Assembly (NCBI RefSeq): GCF_008831285.2
Contig: NC_045149.1
Location: 5,509,500 to 5,573,499 of the forward strand
Direction: 5' to 3'
Length of the DNA: 64,000 nucleotides
DNA from: Nymphaea colorata
Taxonomy: Eukaryota > Streptophyta > Magnoliopsida > Nymphaeales > Nymphaeaceae
Below, piece after piece: positions 4,071 to 59,689 of the stretch (the stretch's first letter is position 1; the number at the start of each line of letters is the position of its first letter). Under the pieces are notes generated by a model. That model was not told the origin of the DNA, searched no databases, and was given only the letters and a program-made list of their open reading frames with translations. Both the position numbers and the translations under genes were made by a program.

Positions 4071-5895
4071 GGATGTAGCCCAATCCTTTCGACTTATTTT
4101 GTGAGTGTATTGGTTCTTTTTTTTGGAGCTTTATTCCAATCCCAACTACAATAAAAAGCTTCAAAAAAATTGAGAGATTTATCATGCTTTTGAAGAACTT
4201 ATCATTTGCTGTTTTGTCTATGAATATCCTGGAACTCATATTCTTGTATATTTTGAAAAAATAAAAAAATAAAACTTAACAATCTTCATGAGTAATTTCT
4301 TCTCAAACTTGTGTCTTTCTTTCTTGTCTAATTCCAACTCAAATCAGCTAGTGTGGCTACTTAAAGGTCTTCAAGAGGCAATTCCACCATGGTATTGGTG
4401 AAAATCCCATTTGAAAGGGGTCTCGTGCAACAACAAGTTAACGACATCCAAATAATGTAGCTCTCCAATGAATATAATAAGCTACATGGAGTTCATGTCA
4501 GCCATCTTCAAATCCAGGAACAATGCCACATAGAAGTCCCTAACTAGGTGAATTGGCCACAAATTTCTTGCTTCTTGTGCTTATGTTTATTTTGGCTCTA
4601 CATTATCACACACCTTGCATGTGCACTTCCTTAACACAATTGCACCATGCACATTAGCTACACACAGCACCCAAATTGTGCAAAGCCTCCCATGCTCTGA
4701 CTTTTTTGGTTAAGACCCTTTAGGTCCCTTGCTGACCTTGTCTACCTCCGTTGGTGCAGGCCCCACTCCTCTCCTTGCTCCTTGGTGGTAGTGCATCCAT
4801 ATCCCCAGCTGAGGCTAGGTATAGTGGCCCATCGTCAAGCCTTTAGTTGCTCGACACCCATGGCATCCTTGGCAAGGCCACCAACCTTGGCCAAGGTTAT
4901 CATGGCGGCCGAACAACCCTCCGTACTTGGAAGTGATAGGTGTGTGTCCATGTGCCCTTGCCACACATGCCTCAACTTTCTCTGCCTTGAATGAGGCCTC
5001 AGGTTGCTTGCAGAAAGAAGCTTGATGCTCTTTCCCAAAGCACATGGTTGAAGGTCCATTCCCCACCACAACCACTTAGTATTTTGTCAGCACTTGGTGC
5101 TCCTCGGCATAGCACTATTCTACCCTTCAACCATCGCCTAATGAATGCCTAACCCATGGTCATGTAAGTCTCACAATGCTAGTTTTAATCATGCCTTATC
5201 TCATTCCCTTCATCGGATGCCCTAAGCCTAATGATTGACTACCCATTACCCCCACTCCCACTAGTTCCCCAACTCAGATTGTTCACTTGGACCAAAGTCA
5301 TCCTCCCCAAGCCGCTCCCTTACATGCCTGACCATGTATTAGGCTTGTGTGGACCTTCCATGGCCTCAACCATATCAGCCACCCTTAGCCTTGCTGTTGC
5401 TAACCCTCTTGCATACGCAAGTGGCCATACTCAACCATTGACAAGGCAATTGCATGGACTCTTGGGTAGCCCAACAGCATGGAGTCTGACCTTCGGCCAT
5501 CATCTTGACCTAGTGCTTGGTAGGCCAAAGAGTTAGTTCAAGGGATCAGCCCTTGGGGACAACCTAGCTAGGCCCATCATGCTGTTGCTAAGTCCCCAGA
5601 AATTCTTGGTCGGACCGTAACAATTTTTGGCCCATCCTAAGGCTTGATCTAGACTTCTCCTATTTCTCAACCTCCAACATGTTATTTTCGGCTTGGATGT
5701 CTCAGCTTATGAAAATATGTGGATAAGCATCGTCGAGCGAGGAATTCATATTTGAGAGTAACCTTTTGGTTTTATAAAGTTGGGATATTTGTGCTTCACA
5801 CTTGTTTGGACAAGACAAATGTATAATTCCATGTGAATATGAGCATTCCTAACCAAATAGCTTAGGCTTATGAGGTTGAGACTCTCGATGTACTT
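4071..5895. repeat. tandem duplication unit B (non-coding)
   Basis: Second, shorter member of the tandem pair described at 1350-4070, about 1.8 kb. It lacks both insertions carried by unit A and so shows the ancestral arrangement. No gene is recognised. The high-copy look of the sequence would also fit two LTRs or two solo copies of an unidentified repeat. Confidence 0.75.
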
Positions 5896-6224
5896 TTTTA
5901 TGAATCACCCTTATTACATCTAAAAAATGAATGCTACACTAAGTGTAATGTAGACAGAGGTAAAAAATACAGCCAAATTAAAATATATATATATAAATTT
6001 TGAAATTGGTTTTCCAACTCTTGGGCAGTCATCAAGTTCTTCACAAAAACCTTCAGTGTGTTACTTTTCAGTCGTGATCAAATAGATGAAAACTCTCAAC
6101 ATATGAGCAAATAGAGGAATACAACGCTGCTATATGCAAATAGAAGAGCGATATTAGACATTATAAAGGTACACATATGTTCATATAGTTGTTTATACTT
6201 TATCATTTATAGAATTAATTGTTA
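5896..6224. other. non-coding, AT-rich
   Basis: No similarity recognised. It may be the eroded 5' part of the copia element that follows. Confidence 0.3.
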
Positions 6225-7543
6225 ATGGGGAACCCTCATTATATTCAAAAGTATTGAATTGTGCTGATTTTCATAAGTGGTTGGTCATCATTTACGATAA
6301 ATTTGAATCTCTACACAAGATTTAAACATGAGAACTTGTAAAACCTTTGAAAAGATGAAAATATCATTGGTTGCAAGTGGGTCTTCAATAAGAAGGAAAG
6401 TACTTCAAGATTAGTAAATGCAAGGTATATAACACATTTAATTCCAAAGGGATACGTCAGGGTAAAGGAATTGATTTTAATGATATTTCTCTATTATTGA
6501 AACCTAATTCTGTAAATGCTTTACTTGCTTTGGTTGTCATATACAATATTTAAAAAAATTTGATGTTGAAACAGTTTTTTACATGGTAAACTAGCAATGC
6601 TTATATGTAGGCTTCAACCTATGGGTTTTCTCATTGAGTGAAAAAGTGACCAACTTTATTTTGTAAAAGAAATCATTAAATGACTTGAAGCGGTCTTCTA
6701 GACAGACATAAAAAGTTTGATATTTCTTTGCCAAAGTTTAGCTATTGCAGAAGAGAATATGATAATTGTACCTATTATAGAAGGATTCAAAAAATTTCTT
6801 ATATCTATTTATTGCCCTATATTGATAATATGTTGAAAAGTGCAATTAACAAATAAGTTTGAGATGAAGGAACTGGGTCATACTAAGAAGATTCTTCATA
6901 TGGAAATTCATAGGGATCAAAAGGAAAAAGAATTATATCAGTCTCAATGAAAATATATGGAAAAGATCATTGAAAGTTTTTATATGAAAAATGGCAAACC
7001 TGAAAATATCCATCTTACTTTACATTTTGAATTATCTGCTCAGCTCATTTGTCTCCTCAAATAGAAAAAGAAATAATGCATGTCGTACGTACCATATTCT
7101 TGTGCAATTGGTAGTATTATATGTGTGATGGTTCACATTAGAGTTGATATCTCACATGTAGGTTGGTATGTTAGCATATACATGTTACATCTTGGCAAAG
7201 GTTATTGACAAATAATAAATTGGATATCATGTATCTGAAGGACATTTTACATACTCCATTTAGAGTTTGCCAAGAGAATTGATGGCTTGATTGGATATAT
7301 TTTTAAACTATGTCGGTAACCTTGCTAGAATGTCACTTATTGACTATGTTTTCTCTCTTGGATATTTTTCTACCAGTCAAAAGCTATTTTACAATTTACT
7401 ATTGCATTATCTGCTATATAGGTTGAGTATATTATAATCACTAAGGTAGATACACAAGATTTTAGTATAGAGGGCATGTTGTGTGAACTTCTTTTGGTCC
7501 AAGAAAAACTTATTATTTATTGTAATAATCAAAGTGTCATTTA

Positions 7544-22189: not shown

Positions 22190-23830
22190 ATCATCCAAGA
22201 ATAACACCTTCATACGAACAGCATGTTCGTTAAAGACCTTATGTGTTAAACCCTTGTAAGCGGATCCGCAATTATAGAGTCTATCCCAATATGCTCTAAA
22301 GACACCTGACCATTCTGTAACCTCTCTTTAAGAGCCTAAAACTTAATGTCGATGACAAAATTTCGCAATCATAAAACATGATTGGATGCCTCGTAACATA
22401 CTATGTTACCGACTTGGCACCCAACAAAGTCAGAATCTGAATACCCAATGATCTTCAACTAGTCTGACTTTCTATATACGAGCATAAAACCTTTTGTTCT
22501 TTGTAAGTACCTCAAAACTCTTTTGGCTGCTTTCTAATAATCCATACTAGGATTACTTAAGTATCTGCTTAACAATCCAACGATAAATGCAATATCCGGA
22601 CTAGTACAAACCTGAGCATACATAAGGCTTCCAACAAAAGACAAATAGGGAATCATTTCCATTTCCTTAGATTTGATTTCACTTTTAGAGCACTGTTTGA
22701 GACTAAACTTGTCTTCTTTAGCAACTGGAGTATCTCCTGATTTACAATCCTTTATGCCATATCGCTGAAGCACCTTATCAATGTAGGCCTTTTGTGATAA
22801 TCCAAGAATACCCCGAGAACGATATCAAAATATTTGGATCCCCAAAACAAAAGATGCGCAACCAAGATCCTTCATGTCAAACTTTGTTGACAAAAATTTC
22901 TTAGTTTCATGCAATATGCCCACATCATTACTTGCCAACAATATATCATCGACATATAAAACAAGAAAAATAAATTTGCCCCCACTGAACTTTTGGTATA
23001 CACATTCATCAATCATATTAGTCTCGAAGCCAAATGAAACTATAACTTGATGAAATTTGTAATACCACTGACGGGAAGCTTACTTTAGCCCATAGATGGA
23101 TTTCTTTAGTTTGCATGTCATTTTCTTTGCATCTCCTGAAGCAAAGTTTTATGGTTGCACCATATATATCGTTTCATCAATGTCTCCATTTAGAAATGTT
23201 GTCTTAACGTCCATCTAATGTAGCTCTAAGTCAAAATGAGCTACAAGTACCATGATGGTCCTGAAAGAGTCTTTCGACAAAACTGGAGAGAAAGTCTCTG
23301 TAAAATCAATGCCTTCTTTTTTAATAAAGCCCTATGCGACAAGATGTGTCTTATACCTTTAGATGTTTCCTAATGAATCTGTCTTGATTTTAAATATCCA
23401 TTTACAACCAATGAGTTTCACACTTTCAGGTAAGGAAACAACTTTTCATACGTCATTACCCATCATGGACTTTATTTCCTCATTCATGGCATCCATCCAC
23501 TCAAGAGCTTTAGAACTCTTTATTGCTTGCTGGAGGTTGACAAGTTCATCCTCCATTAAGCCCATATCAACATCATGTTCTTGGAGATAGACAAAATCAT
23601 TTGAAATTGTACTCCTCTCTCTAGTGGATTTCTTTAGTGACACCTCTACTTGATTTTCTTGAGGTTGTTGAGTTTGTTCTTCAGTAGGGAGATCGACATC
23701 ATTGCCTTCTTCTGAATATGTTGATGGAACAATGCCAGGAATAAAGACCTGACCATTGCTTTCAACATTTGTATGAGTAGACTCACATCTCTCTTCAAAG
23801 GCAATGCTTATAACCTGATTTTGTAGCCAT
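22190..23830 (-). pseudogene. copia RT-RNase H relic, sense arm and tail
   Basis: Minus-strand translation gives, in order: a linker with EEQTQQPQENQVE (near 23660), EWMDAMNEEIKSM (near 23480), the RT core with KTTFLNGDIDE (near 23190) and LKQASRQWYYKF (near 23060). The catalytic YVDD is near 22945. VGSLMYAQ and SPDIAFIVGLLSRYL follow at about 22600, then the RNase H relic YSDSDFVGCQ near 22420 and the terminal IADPLTRGLTHKVF near 22245. Stops and deletions make it non-functional. The part from 22965 upward also forms the left arm of the hairpin. Confidence 0.8.
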
Positions 23831-24052
23831 GAAAGAGGAAGAAGTAGGAATAGGGGACGGCAGGCAGGGGCGATGGAGGAACACCGGCTGGCGATAGGGG
23901 CAGCGGCTGAGGCCGGCCATTATGGCAGCACGGCGGGCTGCGACCGCCGGTTCGGGTTACAGCCGGTGCCCACCCACCTCCGTCCCGCCCGTTTTTGTTT
24001 TTCCCCTTCTGTTTTTCTGTAGGAACAGCAGAAAGGGGAGGAAATCAAAACC
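22965..24052. repeat. hairpin left arm (~1.09 kb)
   Basis: The reverse complement of this stretch matches 24264-25346 almost continuously with scattered mismatches. Landmark pairs are GGGGGCAAATTTATTTTT (right, 25330s) with its complement near 22975, and GTAGGAACAGCAGAAAGG (left, 24020s) with its complement near 24285. It covers RT-coding sequence (to about 23830) and then a GC-rich non-pol segment. Confidence 0.9.
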
Positions 24053-24263: not shown

Positions 24264-25346
24264 TTTTTTATTTCCGCTCCTTTCTGCTGTTCCTACAGAA
24301 AAACCGAAGGAAAAAAAAAACGGGCGGGACAGAGGTGGGTGGGCGCCAACTGTCACCCGAACCGGCGGTCGTAGCCCGCCGTGCTGCCATAACGGCCGGC
24401 CCCAGCCGCTGCCCCTATCGCCAGCCGGTGTTCCTCCGTCGCCCCTGCCTGCTGTCCCCTATTCCTACTTCTTCCTCTTTCATGGCTACAAAATCAGGTT
24501 ATAAGCATTGCCTTTGAAGAGAGACGTGAGTCTACTCATACAAATGTTGAAAGCAATGGTCAGGTCTTTATTCCTGGCATTGTTCCATCAACATATTCAG
24601 AAGAAGGCAATGATGTCGATCTCCCTACTGAAGAACAAACTCAACAACCTCAAGAAAATCAAGTAGAGGTGCCACTAAAGAAATTCACTAGAGAGAGGAG
24701 TACAATTTCAAATGATTTTGTCTATCTCCAAGAACATGATGTTGATATGGGCTTAATGGAGGATGAACCTGTCAACCTCCAGCAAGCAATAAAGAGTTCT
24801 AAAGCTCTTGAGTGGATGCATGCCATGAATGAGGAAATAAAGTCCATGATGGATAAGGACGTATGAAAAGTTGTTTCCTTGCCTGAAAGTATGAAACTCA
24901 TTGGTTGTAAATGGATATTTAAAACCAAGACAGATTCATTAGGAAACATCTAAAGGTATAAGGCACATCTTGTCACAGAGGGCTTTATTAAAAAAGAAGG
25001 CATTGATTTTACAGAGACTTTCTCTCCAGTTTCGTCGAATGACTCTTTCAGGACCATCATGGCACTTGTAGCTCATTTTGACTTAGAGCTACATCAGATG
25101 GATGTTAAGACAGCGTTTCTAAATGGAGACATTGATGAAATGATATATATGGTGCAACCATAAAACTTTGCTTCAGGAGATACAAAGAAAATGACCTGCA
25201 AACTAAAGAAATCCAGCTATGGGTTAAAGCAAGCTTCCCGTCAGTGGTATTACAAATTTCATTTAGTTATAGTTTTATTTTGCTTCGAGACTAATATGGT
25301 TGATGAATGTGTATACCAAAAGTTCAGTGGGGGCAAATTTATTTTT
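24264..25346. repeat. hairpin right arm (~1.08 kb)
   Basis: Inverted copy of 22965-24052. On the plus strand it encodes the same RT fragment (EWMHAMNEEIKSM near 24810, LKKSSYGLKQASRQW near 25210, DECVYQKFSGGKF near 25310), so it is antisense with respect to the element's own direction. It breaks off inside an A/T run just before the leader and primer site. Confidence 0.9.
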
Positions 25347-25445
25347 TTTTTAAAGCAATACTTGCAGCCAAAGAAAAAAAAGAACATCCAAATGGGAAGA
25401 CGCACAAAAACATCCAAAAATTCAACGAATCAATAATGAAAATGG

Positions 25446-44411: not shown

Positions 44412-46473
44412 ATGGATTATACAACAGGTGCTAATGCTTCTAGTTTTGTCTATGCCAACAATATAGAAACTGACATGCATCTTACAAAGGCCAATCACTA
44501 AAATCAGCAATATGGAAAGAGTTTAGTAGGACAATAAACAAATCATGTATTCAACATGTTGTTTGTCAACACTGTAAAGTATCTATAGATTGCAAGAGAT
44601 GGGCACCACACATTTTAAAGAATCATTTAAAAGCATGTCCTCAAAGGTCTAACTTAGAATTAGGCCAACAACATCTTGTCATTGGTGGAAAGACTAATGA
44701 TGGAAAATATACTGTTGGGACTTTCAAGTTTGATTCAAATAAAAGCCAACTTGATTTAGCCAATATGATTATTCTTCATGAATATCCATTTAGTATAGTT
44801 AGTCATTCAGACTTTCAAAAGTTTATTAAATGATTACAAGCATAGTTCAAGTTATTGTCACGTAACACTGTCACATCAGATTACATACACATATTTTAGA
44901 GAAGACTAATGGGAGGATTAGCCTCACGTCTGACATGGACTTCATCTTGTCAGAAACATGGTTATTTATATTTAACTGCACATTATACTGATAATAGTTG
45001 AGAAATAAGAAAAAAGTTCTCAACTTTGTTACAGTTGAAACACCTCATACAGGAGAAAAACTTGCATCAGTCATCAAAGATTGTTTACTAAAATGAAACA
45101 TTGATTGCTACTTATTTTAAATTACATTAGATAATTGTTCGACAAATGATATCATGGTTACAAAATTGATAGAATGGATTCTTAAAAAGGATGCACTTAT
45201 TTGTAATGGAAAATTTTTTCAAGTTAAATGTGCTGCTCATTTTCTTAGTTTGGTTATGCAATATGGTGTCAAAGTAATAGGGATGTGATTGACAAGATCA
45301 TAGAAAGTATAAAATATATCAAGGCATCTCCAACTTGATATGAAATTTTTGATCCAGTAGCGCATCATGCCAAAGTTATTTGTGAAAAAAAGTTATGTCT
45401 TGATGTTCCAACTAGATGGAACTCAACATTTCTTATGTTTGATGTAGCATTACAATATAAAGAAGCTTTTAGTCGTTTTCAAGAACTTGATCATCACTAT
45501 CATTTGAGACTGACTAAGGACAAGTGGAAGAAGGCTACTATTATTCATAACAGTTTAAAAATATTTTATGATACTACTAATGTCATTTCTATAGTCAAGC
45601 ATCCAACTTCTAATATCTTCTTTAAAGAGTTTTGTGATATAATAATGGAAATTGAAAAAATTTGTTCAAGTTTAGATATTTGCTTTTCAAATATGACAAT
45701 GAGGATGAAAACAAAGTTTGACAAGTATTGAGATATATGCAATTTAATTTTAGTAGTTGCAGTTGTTTTTTATCCTCATTATAAGATGAAAATAACTGAG
45801 TTTTATTATAGACAATTTTATAAAGATGAAGCATATGAATATGTCTCTGCAATTAAAAACTATATTTGTAATCTTTATGATAAATTAAAGCTACTTATGC
45901 ATTAAAGACACTGTCTACTAGTACTGGTTATATTGTTGATCTTAAGAAGGATAGTGATGCATCTAGCTTTACTTCTTTGATTGAATTTTCTTCTTGTAAG
46001 AAGCCTAAAATAAGTGCACTAGATAACTTTCTTGAAGAACCACCACAGAGCCAACGCATAAAATCAGATTTGGAGTCTATTTGGCAGAGCCTATTTATCC
46101 AAAAAAACAATCCAATTGACATTTTGACATAGTAGAAGGTCAATGCACTTAAATACCCTGTGTTATCTAAAATGGTATATGATATTTTAGCTATTCTTAT
46201 ATCAACTGTTGCATCATAGTCAACATTAGCATAGGTGGACGTATTCTTGCTTTTATATAGAAGTAGATTAGGTATAAAGACCATGGAGGCTTTGATTTGT
46301 GCACATGATTGGTTGCGAGATCAGACTGAAGATAATTTACTTATTATTAATGCTTTTAAACGTACTTTTGTATTGCTTATTTTATTTTTTTGTTAGATGA
46401 TTCCGATTTGCCTACACCTTTGCTTGAAGAGGAAACATCATTTGCATCTGTATACATTGAAATTGAATCATAA
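44412..46473 (+). pseudogene. hAT (BED-finger) transposase relic
   Basis: In order on plus: the start MDYTTGANASS; a BED zinc finger (AIWKEF, then VCQHCKVS, then HLKACPQ) at 44505-44645; and FDSNKSQLDLANMIILHEYP near 44730. A DDE-region relic (CAAHFLSLV near 45230) and a 98-codon open part at 45435-45731 follow. The C-terminal dimerisation block LKYPVLSKMVYDILA and MEALICAHDWLRDQTED is at 46150-46330. The end is LPTPLLEEETSFASVYIE, with a stop at 46471-46473. It resembles plant RICESLEEPER-type hAT proteins of about 680 residues. At least eight stops or shifts are present, so it is inactive. Confidence 0.85.
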
Positions 46474-49707: not shown

Positions 49708-51500
49708 TGTCACACCCCAACCATTTTGATCCTCAAATATTTTTTTTTTAAACATAAAACATTGAGGTGCGACGACACAACAATTCAAAAGAAAATGAGC
49801 CATGCCATTCAAAACAATAGGACAAACTTTCCATTGTATAATCAATTTCGTTCATACAAATTACTCCACATTTCTCAATAAGACGTATGAGAAAAATGCC
49901 CCAAAACCATGACATTGATGCCTAACAAAAACAAGACATCAATAAGACCAAAACAAGACGCGTCTGCACTACAAAAGACCCAAAACCTCTCTAGTAGGAT
50001 GTGAGTATAGTCATCTGATCTACCTGCTACCCTGGGTTCGCCAAAACCTGAAAAATAAAACAACAGAATGCTTAGCCTTCATAGTATGACAACAAGCTAG
50101 ATAAATCTCTAACCCTCTAAGTAAGGGCCAAATATGGGGTATAACAATTACAAAAACAAATCATGATCATGTCGTGATAGAGCGTACAGTCACACGACTT
50201 ATCATGAAAACCCCTCACATATACCATGACATGTAAAGGCCACTTGATGGCCACGATAACACATTCACAAATCACATGCAACTCATGCATAAACATATCA
50301 TTCTAATTCACTTCAATCACATTCTTTTCATTTACATTAACTTTAGTGAATTGGCAGCTCTTGTGGGTGTAAACACAGGCACGTGCACACCGTGGGCAGC
50401 CTACAGCCGGGAGATAACCCCCGTGGTGGCCCGAAACAATATGGATTCAGTCACAACAATATGGATTCATTCACATTGTAGTGGAAGAGCATTCGTCCAT
50501 GGATGTGTGAATTCCAATGAGAGATACTCAGTCTTTCCTAGGACACCCAGTTTGGGAAGGCAGGAGTACAACGCTCCAAGCACATCACACAAAAATACCT
50601 TGGGGCCTTGCACCGCCTGCGCTTTGAACAGGCGAGACCAATGGCGAAGGCGGGACATCTCCCAAACACATTGCCACAACCCACTGGCCTTCCATCTCTT
50701 ATTCTTTCTTTCTTATCATTATGATTACACATTCACAAAATGACTGGCTAGCTCATGAGGTTGGTTTACTTCACGAGTGCACCCACACCTCCAATTGCCT
50801 CCACACGAGGGCTACACATAATACTAACATTCTTAGCCAGCCGTCATAGCATTACAGGTACAACTACCCTTAAATTCATTCATTTGTATCATACCCATGG
50901 CAATGCACATGCAACATACCACAACATTCACATTAATCAAATACATAAATCACATCTTTCAAAACTTAGCCAAACCACAGAGAGTAGTCTTGATCTGTGA
51001 TTGGCTCGTAGGTGTCCTATACAGTTATCATTCTAGGATGTTTTTCTAATGCACAATCGGGGTCAAGGAGATACTCAACTCGATACCCCACCTTATTTAT
51101 CATAAGCAGTAATCAATTATAGCATGCACACGAAACTACATAGTAATTTTCAAAACAAAACTTATCACATAAACATTCAATTCTCATATAAACAATCATT
51201 TAATCACATCGCAACCATTCAATCACATCACAATCATAGGATCCAACGATCCTGAAAACACACGTTCAAAAGTTGGCCCCATGCAGGGATGTGCCTAGAA
51301 TGCCGTCATACCTGTCGCGCATCCACAAAACACCAAAAATGCCTCGAGCTTCGAATATGGTCACTCAAGGTCTACTTGACGTGCTAGGTGTACCTGCAAA
51401 CATAAGTAAATGATAAATTCTATGCTCACTTCACTTTATAATTTATACAAGTATGAAACATAATCATTGAGGCATGTCATCACCTCAAAAGGGGTCGACT
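49708..51500 (-). mobile_element. LTR-like sequence (right border unclear)
   Basis: Begins TGTCACACCCC on plus, a frequent LTR terminus in plants, with the primer site next to it on the left, so on minus this is the 5' LTR. The outer border was not found; 51500 is only an estimate from a change in sequence character. No second copy is in the window. Confidence 0.45.
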
Positions 51501-52989: not shown

Positions 52990-55135
52990 AGAATTGCAAG
53001 GTAGAACCATTTTTATGACATATGGTCCTTCCTAATTCGGTGCCCATTTTCCTTTAGGTCTACTCTTGAGTGGAACTACTGATCTTAAAACAATGTCATT
53101 TACCTGAAATTTTCTTTCAATGACTGGCTTGGCATATTGTCGGACGACTATCTTGCGATAGACTTTAGCGTGCTCTATTGCTTGTATCATTTTCTTGCCT
53201 AAGAGGTCTAATTGAGCAAGTCTTTTTGGTTGGTACTTGCTAGTTGGAAACTCAATGAGAGTAGCAAATTTCATTGTTGGTTTTTGGACATGTATTGGAA
53301 TGACAATTTTCGTTTCATACACTAATTCTGCTAGTATAGCATTGGTAAGAGTTTGAATCATGGTTTGATACACCCCAAGTGCATTGTGCATTTTCTCATG
53401 TCAATCCTGGCCTGTTTCGATAGTTTTTTTTTATGACACGAATCAAAATTTTGTTAGTTGCTTCTGCGTGACCATTACTCTGAGGGTAATATGTGGTAGA
53501 AAAATGATGTTGTATTTTGTATTTGTGGCAAAAATTGTACATTTTCTCATTCTTTGAAAAATGAGTGTCATTGTTTGAAGCAATATCTGGCATTGGAAAG
53601 AGTTTGAATCATGGTTTGATACACCCCAAGTGCATTGTGCATTTTCTCATGTCAATCCCTACCTGTTTCGATAGTTTTTTTTATGACACGAATCAAAATT
53701 TTGTTAATTGCTTCTGCCTGACCATTACTCTGAGGGTAATATGTGGTAGAAAAATGATGTTGTAGTTTGTATTTGTAGCAAAAATTGTACATTTTCTCAT
53801 TTTTTGAAAAGTGAGTGTCATTGTTTGAAGCAATATCATTTGGGATGAGCAAACCTATGCAAAAGGTTTTTATGAATGAAAAACACAACAACATCATCCT
53901 TCGACTATTTTTAAGTGATTGTCTCCACCTATTTGGTGAAGTAATCTATAGTTGCAAGAAAATACTTGTGCCCATTTGAGGCAGGTGGATTGATCGGGCT
54001 GACCACGTTGAAGACCTACATTGAAAATTGCTAGAGTGAGCTGATTGAAGGAAGGTATGCTGCTAGAGCATGAATTAATGGTGTGTGCGATTGACATCCA
54101 TTGTATTTTTAACAATTGGTGACAGTCTTTATGCATTGTGGGCCAATAGTACCCTACTCATACTGTCTGCTTGACGAGGGTTTGATACTCCACATGTCCC
54201 CTACACATTCCTTCATGAGTTTGAATGACTTCTTGCACCTCATTTGCACCGAGACATCTAGCATATTCTGTACTGAATTATCTTCTATATAAGACTCCAA
54301 CTAAAATGAAATATCTCTTAGAGTTCTTCACTCCTTTCGAGTCATTTCAGGTTGAAATACTCTTGTTTGGAGAAAATGTTTAATGTCATGATACCATGGT
54401 GTTTCTCCACTTTCTACTTGTAGTACCTATTCTAGCATGACATAGGATGGTTGTTCGAGTCTACCAACTTCAAAAGATCTGATGGACTTTAGGTTTGAAT
54501 GTGATGGTAGAGCCCAAACTGACAGACCATCTGCAATTGGGTTAACGTTTCTTTTGACATGTGAGAGTTGCATTCAAATTGCTTTATGAGAAATATTGCT
54601 AATTCTTCATATGAGATTAATTTCTGATCGTTGACTTGCCAATCTCTATTAACTTCACTGGCAAATAAGAGAGAATCTCAAAAAATGTGGACTCTTTGAA
54701 CTTTTTGAGAAGTATTTTAAGTCTTTGTATTAAGGTCCTGTATTCTGCCATGTTATGTGTGCAGAAGAAATTTAATATGAGAAAGTAAGGAATCACTTCC
54801 TTCTTTGGTGCAATGAAAAGTATCCCAATGTCTACCCTATCTATGTTTTTAGATCCATCAAAGTGCATCTCCCACATCGGCTTTGGTTCAGTCATTAGAA
54901 TTTGTTCATTATCTGAAAAAAAGTTGTCATTTGCTTTGATTTCATTAGCTAGAAGGAATATAGCTGTTCAATGATATATTTGAGTGGATTGAGCTTAGAT
55001 AAAATTTTGGCATCGCATGGTAATAGGTAGTGCCTTAATTTTTGCTAAGGCTAAACAAGTGCTTTCCATGTGCAAGTAATTCTTCTCACACTGCACAAAT
55101 GTTTTGTTGATGTAATAGATAGCATGCTCTATTTG
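52990..55135 (-). pseudogene. Ty3/gypsy pol relic: RNase H and integrase
   Basis: Minus-strand order: the RT tail (KTFVQCEKNYLHMESTC, near 55080), ILSKLNPLKYI near 55000, RNase H (WEMHFDGSKN at about 54870 and CTHNMAEYRTLIQRL at about 54755), then integrase. The integrase core shows NGHKYFLATIDYF near 53960 and the DNDTHF/YYPQSNG/AEA segment, which occurs twice (53835-53650 and 53590-53400). The C-terminus with RLAQLDLLGKKMIQAIEH and FQVNDIVL is at 53391-53032. The order RT, RNase H, integrase is that of gypsy elements; the RNase H type suggests the Tat/Athila side, which I cannot prove. Stops and shifts are frequent. Gag, protease, most of RT and both LTRs are missing. Confidence 0.8.
53341..53842. 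repeat. tandem duplication in gypsy integrase, 251-bp period
   Basis: Units 53341-53591 and 53592-53842 start ATTGGTAAGAGTTTG and ATTGGAAAGAGTTTG and differ at only around a dozen positions. Both encode the same integrase core segment, including the catalytic Glu neighbourhood. Confidence 0.9.
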
Positions 55136-55553
55136 GCATCCTTCTTCACAATTGTGGGATGGTTGAGTTTATAATGCATGATTCTTCTTGTTAATTCCAA
55201 TGTTAGATCACTTCTTGTTGTGTTGGAAAACGTGAAATAAGCTTGTTTTATTGGTCTTCTGATGGAATATATATACATATATATCTGAGGTAATATTTTT
55301 ATATGCTTTTTTCAAGAAAATGTTTGTTTTATATGGCTGCATCATAAGTCACTTATATTTTTTTGTCAAATTCTCCTCATTTGTAGCTTGTGGACAAGTG
55401 AACCATCAGCAGCTTTGCACATCGTGCCTTGACCATGATGATGCAGCCATGTTGTAAGACATTCTATGCTTTCTCTTTTCCCAATTCCCTAGACATGAGT
55501 AAATTTTGAGGGGTGGTATACATGCTTGTTCAATTTGATTTCTTTTTTCAATT
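55136..55553. other. AT-rich junction sequence
   Basis: Separates the gypsy relic from the permuted copia frame. No LTR, primer site or coding similarity recognised. Confidence 0.4.
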
Positions 55554-57104
55554 GTGTTGTTGGAAGATTGTTCTCTCTTGGATCTTCTTATGGCATGTCT
55601 CGTTTGCTACCAGGTTGAAACTAATTTGGACGATGGAGGGACGGGGCAGAAGATTGGGATTGGTTCGGCTATTGATGGGCTCTACAGAATGCCAGTACAG
55701 GTTGCCTCTGCTTTGATTTCAGCTACCAGTGGACAGTTGTCTGGCGTGGAGGACAGATCCGTTATTATGCGCTGGCACGAGAGACTTGGTCATATTCCTT
55801 TTCAGTTGATTAAACAGTTGTTTCCTAAGATGTTTCAGTCTGTTTCTTTGGACACCTTCGCCTGTGAAGTGTGTCAGTTGTCTAAGCATGTTAGGGCCTC
55901 GTACCCTATTTCGTTCAATAAAACCAGCCGTCCATTTGCTTTGGTTCACTCTGATGTTTGGGGTCCTTCGGGAGTACCCACCTGTCGTGGTTTTCATTAT
56001 TTCATGACTCTTATCGATGATTACTCTCGGTGTACGTTCGTGTATTTGTTGAAAGAACGTAGTGAAGTTCCCGGCATTGTCAAAAACTTCATTGCATTTG
56101 TTGAAACTCAATTCCAGACCCCTGTTCAGACCCTTCGTACTGACAATGCTCGAGAGTATGTCTCCCAATCCCTTGATGACTTCTTGCGAAGCAAGGGGAT
56201 TATACATGAAACATCCTGTAGCTACACACCTCCTCAGAATGGCGTGGCTGAAAGGAAAAACCGTCATTTGTTAAATGTCACCCGGGCCATCATGTTTCAA
56301 CGTCATGTCCCTAAGCGGTACTGGGGTGATGCACTCCTAACTAGTGCTCATCTCATTTACCGCATGCCTACTTGTGTGTTGAATGGTCATTCCCCTTATT
56401 CTGTTCTATGGCCTACTCAGAATCCCTGGCCTTTGACCCCTCGGGTGTTTGGGTGTGTTTGCTTTGTCCATGATCATAGTCCCACTCTCAAGAAACTTGA
56501 TCCTCGGTCCATCAAAGCGATCTTTTTGGGGTATTCCTCCACCCATAAGGGATACAAGTGTGTTGACCCTAGCACTTCCAGAGTATATGTCTCCAGGAAT
56601 GTTACCTTTCATGAACATGAGTCATACTTTCCTGCGAATCCTCTTCAGGGGGAGTGTCTAGGTGAGAGAGTGGACGAGTATTCTTCGCATCAGTTGATCC
56701 AGTTCACAGATTTCTTGGATTACACGGCCAGTTCTCCGAGTGTGAGTGTGGTAGACACAGTCAGTGAGGACAGAGACAGTCAGATGGAGGGGGGCCCTGT
56801 GGAAGAACAGTCCCGTGATCATTTGTTTGGTCAGGTATACAACAGGAAGAAGAAGGATGTGATGGAGGTTGTTGATGTTACCAATCCTGATCTTGTGAGC
56901 TTCCCGGATGATCCAAGTCCAATGAATGAAGATCTTCCCATTGCCCTACGCAAAGGCACCAGGTCATGTACTTCTCATCCTATTCAGAGATTTGTTTCGT
57001 ATGCTAAACTCAGTAAAGACTATAAGTGCTTTATTACCTCTTTATCTATGGCTGTTATTCCCAGGTCAGTGGAGGATGCCAGGGAGGATCCCAAATGGCT
57101 ATAG
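55554..57104 (+). CDS. copia integrase region, first part of permuted ORF
   Basis: A 516-codon open frame. The first ~20 residues have no similarity. From about 55620 the translation enters a copia polyprotein in the middle: GTGQKIGIGSAIDGLYRM, then the GAG-pre-integrase zinc motif (RWHERLGH, CEVCQLSK; residues ~73-110). The integrase core follows, with Asp in VHSDVWGP (~residue 133), Asp in LRTDNAREY (~197) and Glu in NGVAERKNRHL (~232). The post-integrase linker is acidic. It ends at a TAG (57102-57104) that replaces a Gln codon; the frame continues unbroken after it. All three DDE residues are present, so decay is slight. The start codon is chosen only because it is the first ATG. Confidence 0.8.
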   Translation: MLLEDCSLLDLLMACLVCYQVETNLDDGGTGQKIGIGSAIDGLYRMPVQVASALISATSGQLSGVEDRSVIMRWHERLGHIPFQLIKQLFPKMFQSVSLDTFACEVCQLSKHVRASYPISFNKTSRPFALVHSDVWGPSGVPTCRGFHYFMTLIDDYSRCTFVYLLKERSEVPGIVKNFIAFVETQFQTPVQTLRTDNAREYVSQSLDDFLRSKGIIHETSCSYTPPQNGVAERKNRHLLNVTRAIMFQRHVPKRYWGDALLTSAHLIYRMPTCVLNGHSPYSVLWPTQNPWPLTPRVFGCVCFVHDHSPTLKKLDPRSIKAIFLGYSSTHKGYKCVDPSTSRVYVSRNVTFHEHESYFPANPLQGECLGERVDEYSSHQLIQFTDFLDYTASSPSVSVVDTVSEDRDSQMEGGPVEEQSRDHLFGQVYNRKKKDVMEVVDVTNPDLVSFPDDPSPMNEDLPIALRKGTRSCTSHPIQRFVSYAKLSKDYKCFITSLSMAVIPRSVEDAREDPKWL

Positions 57105-58245
57105 GCCATGACAGAGGAGATGGACGCCCTGGCAAAGAACAATACGTGGGAGGTTGTTGATATTCCTAATGGAACTCACTTAGTTGGTTCCAAGTGGGTG
57201 TTTACTGTGAAGTACAAACCTGATGGCACTGTAGAACGCTATAAAGCTCGTCTCGTTGCAAAGGGGTTTAGCCAGAAATATGGGATTGACTATCTTGAGA
57301 CGTTCGCTCCCGTTGCTAAACTGAAGACAGTAAGGGTCATCTTAGCTCTGGCAGTACAAAAAAAGTGGAGCATAGACCAACTTGATGTCAAGAACGCCTT
57401 CTTGAATGGTCACCTTGAGGAAGAAGTCTATATGAGCATGCCGCCTGGATATGCGCAGAAAGGAAAGTGCTGTTATCTCAAGAAAGCATTGTATGGCCTC
57501 AAGCAGTCCCCTAGAGCGTGGTTTGAAAGACTAAGGGTTGTGATGAAGACTAATGGATATAAACAGGGAAATGGTGATCACACCCTCTTCATCAAGCAGA
57601 GAAATGGTCTAGTGAGCCTTCTACTAGTATATGTTGATGATATGATTGTCGTTAGGCGATGTACACATTGTCACAAGTCAGGACATTTTGTTGATTTTTG
57701 TTGGGATCTACACCCTGAGAAGAGACTTGTTCGTGGTCGCCCTCCGTCGAGTCGGCGAGGTTCTCTTGTGCAGGACTCAAATCAGAGTGGCTCTTCTAGT
57801 AGTGAAAAGTCGAGGCTTTCCCCGGATCAAATTAAGGAACTACAAGCTTACATCAGTCGCCTTTCTACTACGTCAGAGGACACATCTACGTCTGATGGAG
57901 CTAAGTTAGCTCAGGCTCTTGTGGCTACTAGTGATCAAGGTAATTCTCCTCCCGGTGATTGGATTGTTGACAGTGGGGCTACTCATCATATGACCGGGGA
58001 CCCTAAGATGTTTCAAGAATACAAGTTGACTTCTGGGCAGCAGCGTGTTTCTATGGCTGATGGGTCTTCTATTTCTGTGGCTGGAAAAGGGAGTTTATCA
58101 TTACTGAACAAATATTGTCTTCATAATGTCCTGCATGTTCCTAATATTCCCATAAATTTGTTATCTGTCAGCAGTATTACCAAAGAGCTAAACTGTAATC
58201 TAATATTCTCTGCTGATCGTTGTTTCCTGCGCGACTCTTCTAGTT
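55612..58245 (+). mobile_element. circularly permuted copia polyprotein segment
   Basis: The two outer ends (55612-55625 and about 58240) correspond to neighbouring positions of a normal copia polyprotein, just after the protease and before the GAG-pre-integrase motif. The inner junction (about 57654) joins RT to the gag zinc knuckle. The segment is therefore a rotation of one contiguous piece running from zinc knuckle to RT. No LTR, primer site or polypurine tract is seen on either side. Confidence 0.75.
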
Positions 58246-58247
58246 AA
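57108..58247 (+). CDS. fused copia RT N-half, gag zinc knuckle and protease
   Basis: A 379-codon frame in the same phase as the preceding one. Residues 1-182 are the N-terminal half of copia reverse transcriptase ([42 protein letters not shown], catalytic YVDD at 57630-57641). At about 57654 the RT stops and the frame passes directly into the gag zinc knuckle CTHCHKSGHFVDFC (from 57660). A Ser-rich linker and the aspartic protease (IVDSGATHHMT, Asp codon 57969-57971; LLSVSSITKEL) follow. In every copia element known to me gag and protease come before integrase and RT, so the order is rotated. RT thumb and RNase H are absent. Confidence 0.85.
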   Translation: MTEEMDALAKNNTWEVVDIPNGTHLVGSKWVFTVKYKPDGTVERYKARLVAKGFSQKYGIDYLETFAPVAKLKTVRVILALAVQKKWSIDQLDVKNAFLNGHLEEEVYMSMPPGYAQKGKCCYLKKALYGLKQSPRAWFERLRVVMKTNGYKQGNGDHTLFIKQRNGLVSLLLVYVDDMIVVRRCTHCHKSGHFVDFCWDLHPEKRLVRGRPPSSRRGSLVQDSNQSGSSSSEKSRLSPDQIKELQAYISRLSTTSEDTSTSDGAKLAQALVATSDQGNSPPGDWIVDSGATHHMTGDPKMFQEYKLTSGQQRVSMADGSSISVAGKGSLSLLNKYCLHNVLHVPNIPINLLSVSSITKELNCNLIFSADRCFLRDSSS

Positions 58248-59689
58248 TCCATTGTGGGCAGTGGCCGATTCATGGCTGTTATGTTCAAACCAATTCAGAC
58301 TTTAATATCTTTGGACCACCTTCAGTTGAGTCTGCTGCAAAAAGAGCAACTTCTTTGATTGACCAATTTTAATAGCATTTGTTTAACAAAAAAATGATTA
58401 ACCAAATGGCACAAAACTGGGTCCAACGTTTGAATCTAATGACCATTATAAATAGTCAAAAATTATATCGTTCTTTACTCATGGATTGTTTGCACACAAG
58501 ATTTAGTTTCCATGAAAATTAAAATTAGTTGAAATTATTAACTATTCCTGCTCTATAGGTAGCAAGAAACAACATTTGAACCTGATGTCAAAGGATTCTG
58601 AAAATAAGTGCCTAAAATAAAGGACACACTCAGACACCATCGAAGATATAATATTTGCCCAACTTTACTTAGACCAGCAAAGGCTTAGAGTGGCCTAGAC
58701 CATAGATCAGGCCGTGCTTTGGACCTACCAAATCTACCTTTTCAACTTTCTGTGAGAAGATTATGTCGCAAGCTGTTCAATGCACCATCACTTTTTCTCA
58801 TCTTTAAACAAATGGCAAACTTTCCTGTGAAAAGACGAAATGCAAGTCCCTCTCTAGATCTACCACAAGATGAAAGAACTAAGGCAATTTTTTTTTCAAA
58901 AAGAGACCAAACAATTTTTCTAGAAATAACTATAACATGGCCAAAATTTATCTATGTATCAGTTGCTCCACAACAAGTTGTGGGAGCAATTTCCAGCTGC
59001 TTCATGCTTCCCACAAACACTAAGTGGCAAAACATTACATCTGCAACCACTTAAGTAAAAACATGCATATTCTTGAACTTATGACATCTGAAGTTTAGAA
59101 CTTCACCTATTTAAATTGACATTGATATTTAAAATATTTATATCATTTGTGCACTCAGTTATTTTTTCATCATGTCTCTGTGCATGAGTTGCTTCATTAT
59201 AGTCCATTTTTAACCAGAATAGGGTTCTCTTATAATTTGTGGTTGTCATGAAGGCGTCTACCTCACAGAAATTCATTTTCGGACACTTCTTTATGTTGTC
59301 CATTCTATAACTCTATCTGTCGATTGTAATCCATTTATTTTTCTATAATCTATATGGACTGATAATTTAAATTTATTAATGTTTACTTAGATTATGTTTC
59401 ATCAATCTATTAATGTTTACTCAGCTATTTCTTCGAAGGGGCCTTATTGTAGTTATGAAGTTTTTGCTAAATTCTCACAAAACTTAACAAAAGCAAAGGT
59501 TATATAAAAATTAATAAACAGATAAAACTTCATTTTTTTGTTTTTATAAAAAAAAAAACTCATCAAAAGCCAAGTTCTGATATATATGAGTTTTGTGGAA
59601 ATATAATTCTAAATTGTGTCAATTCAATCTTATTGTATAAAATCATATACATTTCGGGATTCAACAAAGTTCCAGAAAAGCTGGTCTCG
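58248..59689. other. non-coding, nothing recognised
   Basis: A 111-codon frame at 58719-59054 shows no domain. The stretch becomes AT-rich after 59050. Confidence 0.35.

Follow-up and report, generated by a model that had tools for sequence, protein, structure and literature searches.

In the genome of Nymphaea colorata, we have found a copia fragment on chromosome C12 in which the integrase-RT part precedes the zinc knuckle-protease part, and both parts match a single copia copy of normal order on C7, where the two outer ends of the fragment are almost adjacent. This fragment is probably the product of an LTR-less DNA circle that originated from C7, was opened once, and was joined into C12 by end joining, and the event would be a recent one. 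The stretch analyzed here, which is called the window in the following, is 64,000 nucleotides long (C12:5509500-5573499), and the genome searched was the Nymphaea colorata assembly to which it belongs (407.8 Mb, 783 contigs).

Domain layout of the segment

The permuted order was evident from Pfam matches in two adjoining open reading frames. The first frame (55539-57104) contains the gag_pre-integrs, rve, and SH3 domains, and the second (57105-58247) begins with RVT_2, covering model positions 1-175 of 244, and continues with Pol_BBD and a protease region with the DSGA motif; the families found in the segment are PF13976, PF00665, PF25597, PF07727, and PF22936. The first-pass annotation, which was made from the letters alone, had described integrase-RT before zinc knuckle-protease in a frame with a single in-frame TAG, and both descriptions are borne out, the one stop being found at 57102-57104. 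The segment that it had placed at 55554-58247 is also real, but its precise limits, 55638-58236, differ from those positions by up to 84 bp; similarly, the joint expected at ~57654 is present but is placed at 57650/57651 by DNA copies in the same genome. The features are as follows.

55338-55637, plus strand: left flank, single-copy except for 50 bp (55580-55629) that are 90% like C3:20464952-20465001
55630-55637, no strand: 8 bp that separate the C3-like match from the segment; may be filler or native sequence
55638-57650, plus strand: piece A, with the GAG-pre-integrase start, integrase core, SH3-like domain, and RT N-terminal part to YVDDMIV; equals L009 (the C7 copy) 5192-7204 (blastn, 2,013 bp, 10 mismatches, no gap; 99.5%)
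57102-57104, plus strand: in-frame stop, assigned to the window side by comparison with C7 and 20 other informative copies
57650-57651, no strand: inner joint, L009 7204 fused to 4604; read as the circle-closing joint
57651-58236, plus strand: piece B, with the gag zinc knuckle, linker, and protease to its C-terminal end (blastn, Pfam); equals L009 4604-5189 (blastn, 586 bp, 2 mismatches, no gap; 99.7%)
58236-58237, no strand: right outer junction; in C7, 2 more bases reach the start of piece A
58237-58700, plus strand: right flank; 101 bp without a match elsewhere, then from 58338 ~75-82% like a C8 locus

The segment is a copia fragment and not an element, because the C7 copy has LTRs but the segment is without them. 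The 5′ LTR-gag stretch of C7 found no match anywhere in the window (E 1e-3), and for the stretch from the RT C-half through RNase H to the 3′ LTR, the only matches were to other copia-like stretches of the window, at 18.5 and 63.2-63.7 kb (68-87%). From ~19.4 to 62.9 kb of the window, the segment excepted, the LTR, gag, RT C-half, and RNase H of C7 were thus all unmatched.

Elsewhere in the window, we noticed two arms of copia RT region, 1,039 bp each and inverted relative to one another (22963-24001 and 24311-25349), which are 96% complementary and 309 bp apart and form a large palindrome from which hairpin RNA could arise. Also, a tandem duplication with a period of ~250 bp and 96% identity is located at 53339-53837 inside an apparent decayed gypsy-type element on the minus strand, and an open reading frame at 45339-45731 resembles part of a hAT-type transposase; the latter two assignments were made by eye.

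The probable donor copy on C7

By blastn, both pieces matched a single copia copy of normal order, locus L009 on C7, as two ungapped blocks that stand there in the normal order with 2 bp between them. The outer ends of the segment, which had been claimed to be adjacent points of the parent element, are accordingly neighbors in the alignment with this same-genome copy. Among the 39 non-window places listed, 24 were compared, namely the top four and 20 more that follow the ranking closely, with one higher-ranked place left out. Both pieces were carried by 22 of the 24, and the order was normal in all 22, C7 included; the remaining two had no piece A at the cut-off used. In C7 and the 21 other copies with both pieces, the source order was indeed protease-integrase-RT-RNase H. 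C7 was, furthermore, the best non-self match among the matches listed for the protease, joint, integrase (56250-56610), and right-end queries.

Seventeen sites are common to the window and C7 and are present in at most one of 20-23 other informative copies; 11 of them are in piece A and six in piece B (two of the six being adjacent), and the same count made for each of the 23 other copies gave 0-2. Given the identities of 99.5% and 99.7% and 17 rare sites versus 0-2, the matching of both halves to C7 is not a matter of chance. The rare sites are spread over both pieces, and therefore one donor lineage is indicated, C7 or a near-identical copy. Because no third member of the lineage appeared among the scored matches, C7 itself would be the simplest donor. 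The stretch occurs once at C7 with no tandem there, and the LTRs of C7 are identical over the first 249 bp, beyond which the match to the 3′ LTR ends.

A segmental duplication of the C7 locus was also considered and rejected; the C7 flanks match the window only at 64-86% over 42-270 bp, and these matches fall in other copia-like stretches.

Junctions and acceptor site

Inspection of the joint for microhomology, which had been called for in the first-pass annotation, revealed 0 bp shared and no inserted base in the comparison of the window with L009. The inner joint is spanned by one of 40 scored genome matches, the other 39 matching one half only, and the right outer junction is likewise spanned by one of 40. 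The donor sequence missing between the outer ends amounts to 2 bp, while two random ends in 2,601 bp fall within 2 bp of each other ~0.2% of the time. No target-site duplication was found, the flanks sharing no word of at least 7 within 80 bp and one 6-mer against 2.8 expected; nor was an LTR end found at any junction of the segment, a poly(A) tract at its outer ends, or an N base at 55000-59000 of the window. The two ends of the circle share a short near-repeat of 8 positions (one mismatch, one base out of register), which is weak, being reached in 161 of 5,000 random draws, in which draws <100 bp apart were skipped but counted.

As for the flanks, the C3-like stretch on the left has weak further likeness to C3 upstream and is an old shared stretch. 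The 8-mer at 55630-55637 was also found once in L009, but no source is shown for it because shuffles contain the 8-mer as well (36 of 200). The relatives of the flanks in the genome, on C3 and C8, are different loci, and therefore no empty acceptor site was recovered from them. The flanks possibly include a host exon.

Routes to the permuted order

The segment consists of two blocks from one donor in the same orientation and in swapped order, its outer ends are adjacent in the donor, and its junctions have no shared base at the inner joint, a loss of 2 bp at the opening, and a possible 8-bp filler. In the first-pass annotation, it was proposed that a circle made of part of an element, from zinc knuckle to RT, had been opened at a point between protease and integrase before its reinsertion, and this proposal agrees well with the arrangement seen here. 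In such a route, L009 4604-7204 (zinc knuckle, protease, integrase, and RT N-half), a stretch of one young copia element, would have closed end-to-end into a DNA circle without microhomology, the circle would have been opened once between protease and integrase with the loss of 2 bp, and end joining would then have ligated the opened ends into a break in chromosome C12. The DNA of the circle might have been cut from the C7 locus or might have been C7-templated cDNA. A single cut in a circle gives the order, the orientation, and the adjacency together, and the bare junctions would point to end joining; from these sequence features, we infer the circle intermediate, its DNA nature, and non-homologous end joining. 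The more specific proposition that a circle of the C7 lineage, made while young, re-entered the germline genome via host end joining without integrase and left a permuted copy has, in our estimation, an even chance of being right. If it is, a reinserted copy would at first read through as a single long fusion in which the domains have a new order, given a donor frame that is free of stops and a circle whose length is divisible by three.

The strongest competitor, while still unlikely, dispenses with the circle: two linear fragments of one donor molecule, separated by the same cut between protease and integrase, would have been captured at a single break and ligated in swapped order and in the same orientation. 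The same three breaks are needed and the same three junctions are left as in the circle route, and bare junctions fit end joining of fragments as well. The two ends of one break must, however, part and then rejoin on the outside, and the observed arrangement is one of several orders and orientations, whereas a single cut in a circle always produces it. Ligation of two fragments is therefore less likely than the circle, since its order and orientation come by luck.

LTR retrotransposons are frequently found in tandem in plants (PMC11899658), and deletions in a tandem array or duplication of the element could leave A-B; nonetheless, this origin is very improbable, given that the adjacency of the outer ends would be a coincidence (~0.2% within 2 bp), that C7 has no tandem, and that the rest of the C7 element is unmatched over the ~19.4-62.9 kb of the window described above, the segment excepted. 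An assembly artefact, to which we attach about the same low probability, would require three independent false joints in a region (55000-59000) without N bases, and the segment does not represent misplaced C7 reads because its 12 differences from C7 are dispersed. Retrocopying of a back-spliced circular RNA is more doubtful still; pseudogenes derived from circRNA are reported in animals, but the donor bases are AC after 7204 and CT before 4604, giving neither a GT donor nor an AG acceptor in the back-splice arrangement on either strand, and the outer ends are without a poly(A) tract or target-site duplication. Least probable of all is an integrase product, either an autointegration circle or ordinary integration of deleted cDNA: truncated copia eccDNAs and truncated insertions do occur in Arabidopsis, but the truncated insertions described in that study all had two LTRs (PMC10462705), while no junction here has an LTR end or a target-site duplication.

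Age and reading frame

Returning to the DNA circle as the preferred route, we estimated the age of the insertion from the 12 dispersed differences between the window and C7 in 2,599 sites. When polarized by the commonest base among the other copies, six changes are on the window side and six on the C7 side; eight of the 12 sites are variable in at least one further copy as well, and the strictly private changes are three in the window and two in C7. Substitution rates in plants are 0.7-1.3 x 10^-8 per site per year, with which the insertion would be roughly 0.2-0.3 million years old. The first-pass annotation had left a choice between a very recent event and a product that was kept, and the few differences from C7 speak for the former.

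The latter finds no support. The stop at 57102-57104 is absent from C7 and 20 other informative copies and hence most likely dates from the move itself or from the time that followed. The window-side changes are three silent, two missense, and one nonsense, against a neutral expectation of ~0.22-0.30 silent, 0.67-0.74 missense, and 0.03-0.04 nonsense, and thus have no sign of constraint, although the power of only six changes is low; on this basis, selection acting on the fused frame was rejected. Indeed, youth alone explains the open frame. The donor frame is open with no stop from L009 4232 to 8156, and the inferred circle (L009 4604-7204) has a length of 2,601 bp, which is divisible by three; therefore, the frame crosses the joint, for which the chance was 1 in 3. 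A circle of L009 4604-7204 would, as a side aspect, carry an endless reading frame.

Among the 17 sites shared by the window and C7, nine are non-silent, compared with ~70-78% expected without constraint, which hints that the lineage was still partly constrained; this hint does not settle whether C7 genomic DNA or cDNA formed the circle. At the protein level, private changes were counted at 7 of 289 conserved columns, a count superseded by the DNA comparison.

Relatives at the protein level

The integrase-RT part is covered by a protein of N. colorata (82% over 94% of the query), and the zinc knuckle-protease part is covered by proteins of N. thermarum with up to 89%. Among the matches listed (238 proteins), the permuted order was found in none of the 122 proteins with at least two of the three pieces, in a comparison that spanned ~209-911 aa and had full polyproteins outside it. 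A scan of prokaryotic genome contigs found no relative.

Other rearrangements were seen in N. thermarum. In the protein P0025, a stretch of the segment's family (protease to pre-integrase) is succeeded by one from a second copia family (protease to integrase), which makes it another rearranged copia polyprotein. P0121 and P0233 have internal deletions that in both proteins start immediately behind the protease motif VSMAD and end at different points on the right, and this site is possibly a deletion hotspot. Also, positions 50345-50837 of the window match the C-terminal part of P0233 (67-82%), where this repeat is fused to the segment's copia family.

Comparison with known systems

Reinsertion of a circle is already known as a kind of event, and it is the donor class and the setting that appear to be new within the literature searched. 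Serial translocation via circular intermediates was reportedly described by Durkin in 2012 for color sidedness in cattle, and is said to have been found by Galeote in wine yeast. Our segment is like these cases in that the swapped order would mark a circle, and unlike them in that a transposon fragment was moved, in a plant.

In human circle-mediated segmental duplications (cSDPs), the pieces are in the order B-A, and the junctions have 0-2 bp of microhomology or 1-27 bp indels; the closing junction is blunt or has 1-2 bp, the indels are at the opening and insertion points, and neither repeats nor transposase are needed (PMC7450558). The change from A-B to B-A, the bare closing junction, and the short indels at the opening are all shared by our segment, whereas cSDPs comprise tens of kb or more of genomic DNA and the segment is 2.6 kb inside one plant copia element. 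Three human cases of eccDNA-mediated duplication are described in which the circle was cut somewhere and reintegrated; in one of them, the donor was identified with a tree of 15 copies (PMC7188851). Those duplications are ~20-130 kb with 95-97% identity; here, the identity is 99.5%, the donor is marked by 17 sites, and the junctions are base-resolved.

In plants, LTR-less or partly deleted copia circles are known from EVD and ONSEN in Arabidopsis (PMC10462705, PMC10255303). As described there, these circles are free, their reinsertion is left open, and truncated insertions kept both LTRs, while the segment is a candidate for a reinserted circle. Plant reinsertion of such circles is described as unproven (PMC5338827) and plant retrotransposon circles as a probable dead end (PMC10462705), whereas a paper on tomato mentions reinsertion as a possibility that was shown in other eukaryotes (PMC11044480); no wording on reintegration or reinsertion was found in the main text of a 2026 review of plant eccDNA (PMC12975422). 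In a fungal screen, no such event was found in 306 genomes, in which transposable elements were masked (PMC9694575), and repeat masking conceals insertions of this class. We recognized no report of such an insertion of a plant retrotransposon circle in the open-access literature searched. That plant circles derived from retrotransposons are more than dead ends is a reading to which we would give equal weight for and against. The present locus is a candidate that is resolved to the base, has a named donor, and is young. Swapped pieces of one element with donor ends 0 to a few bp apart form its signature, which is searchable in any long-read plant genome.
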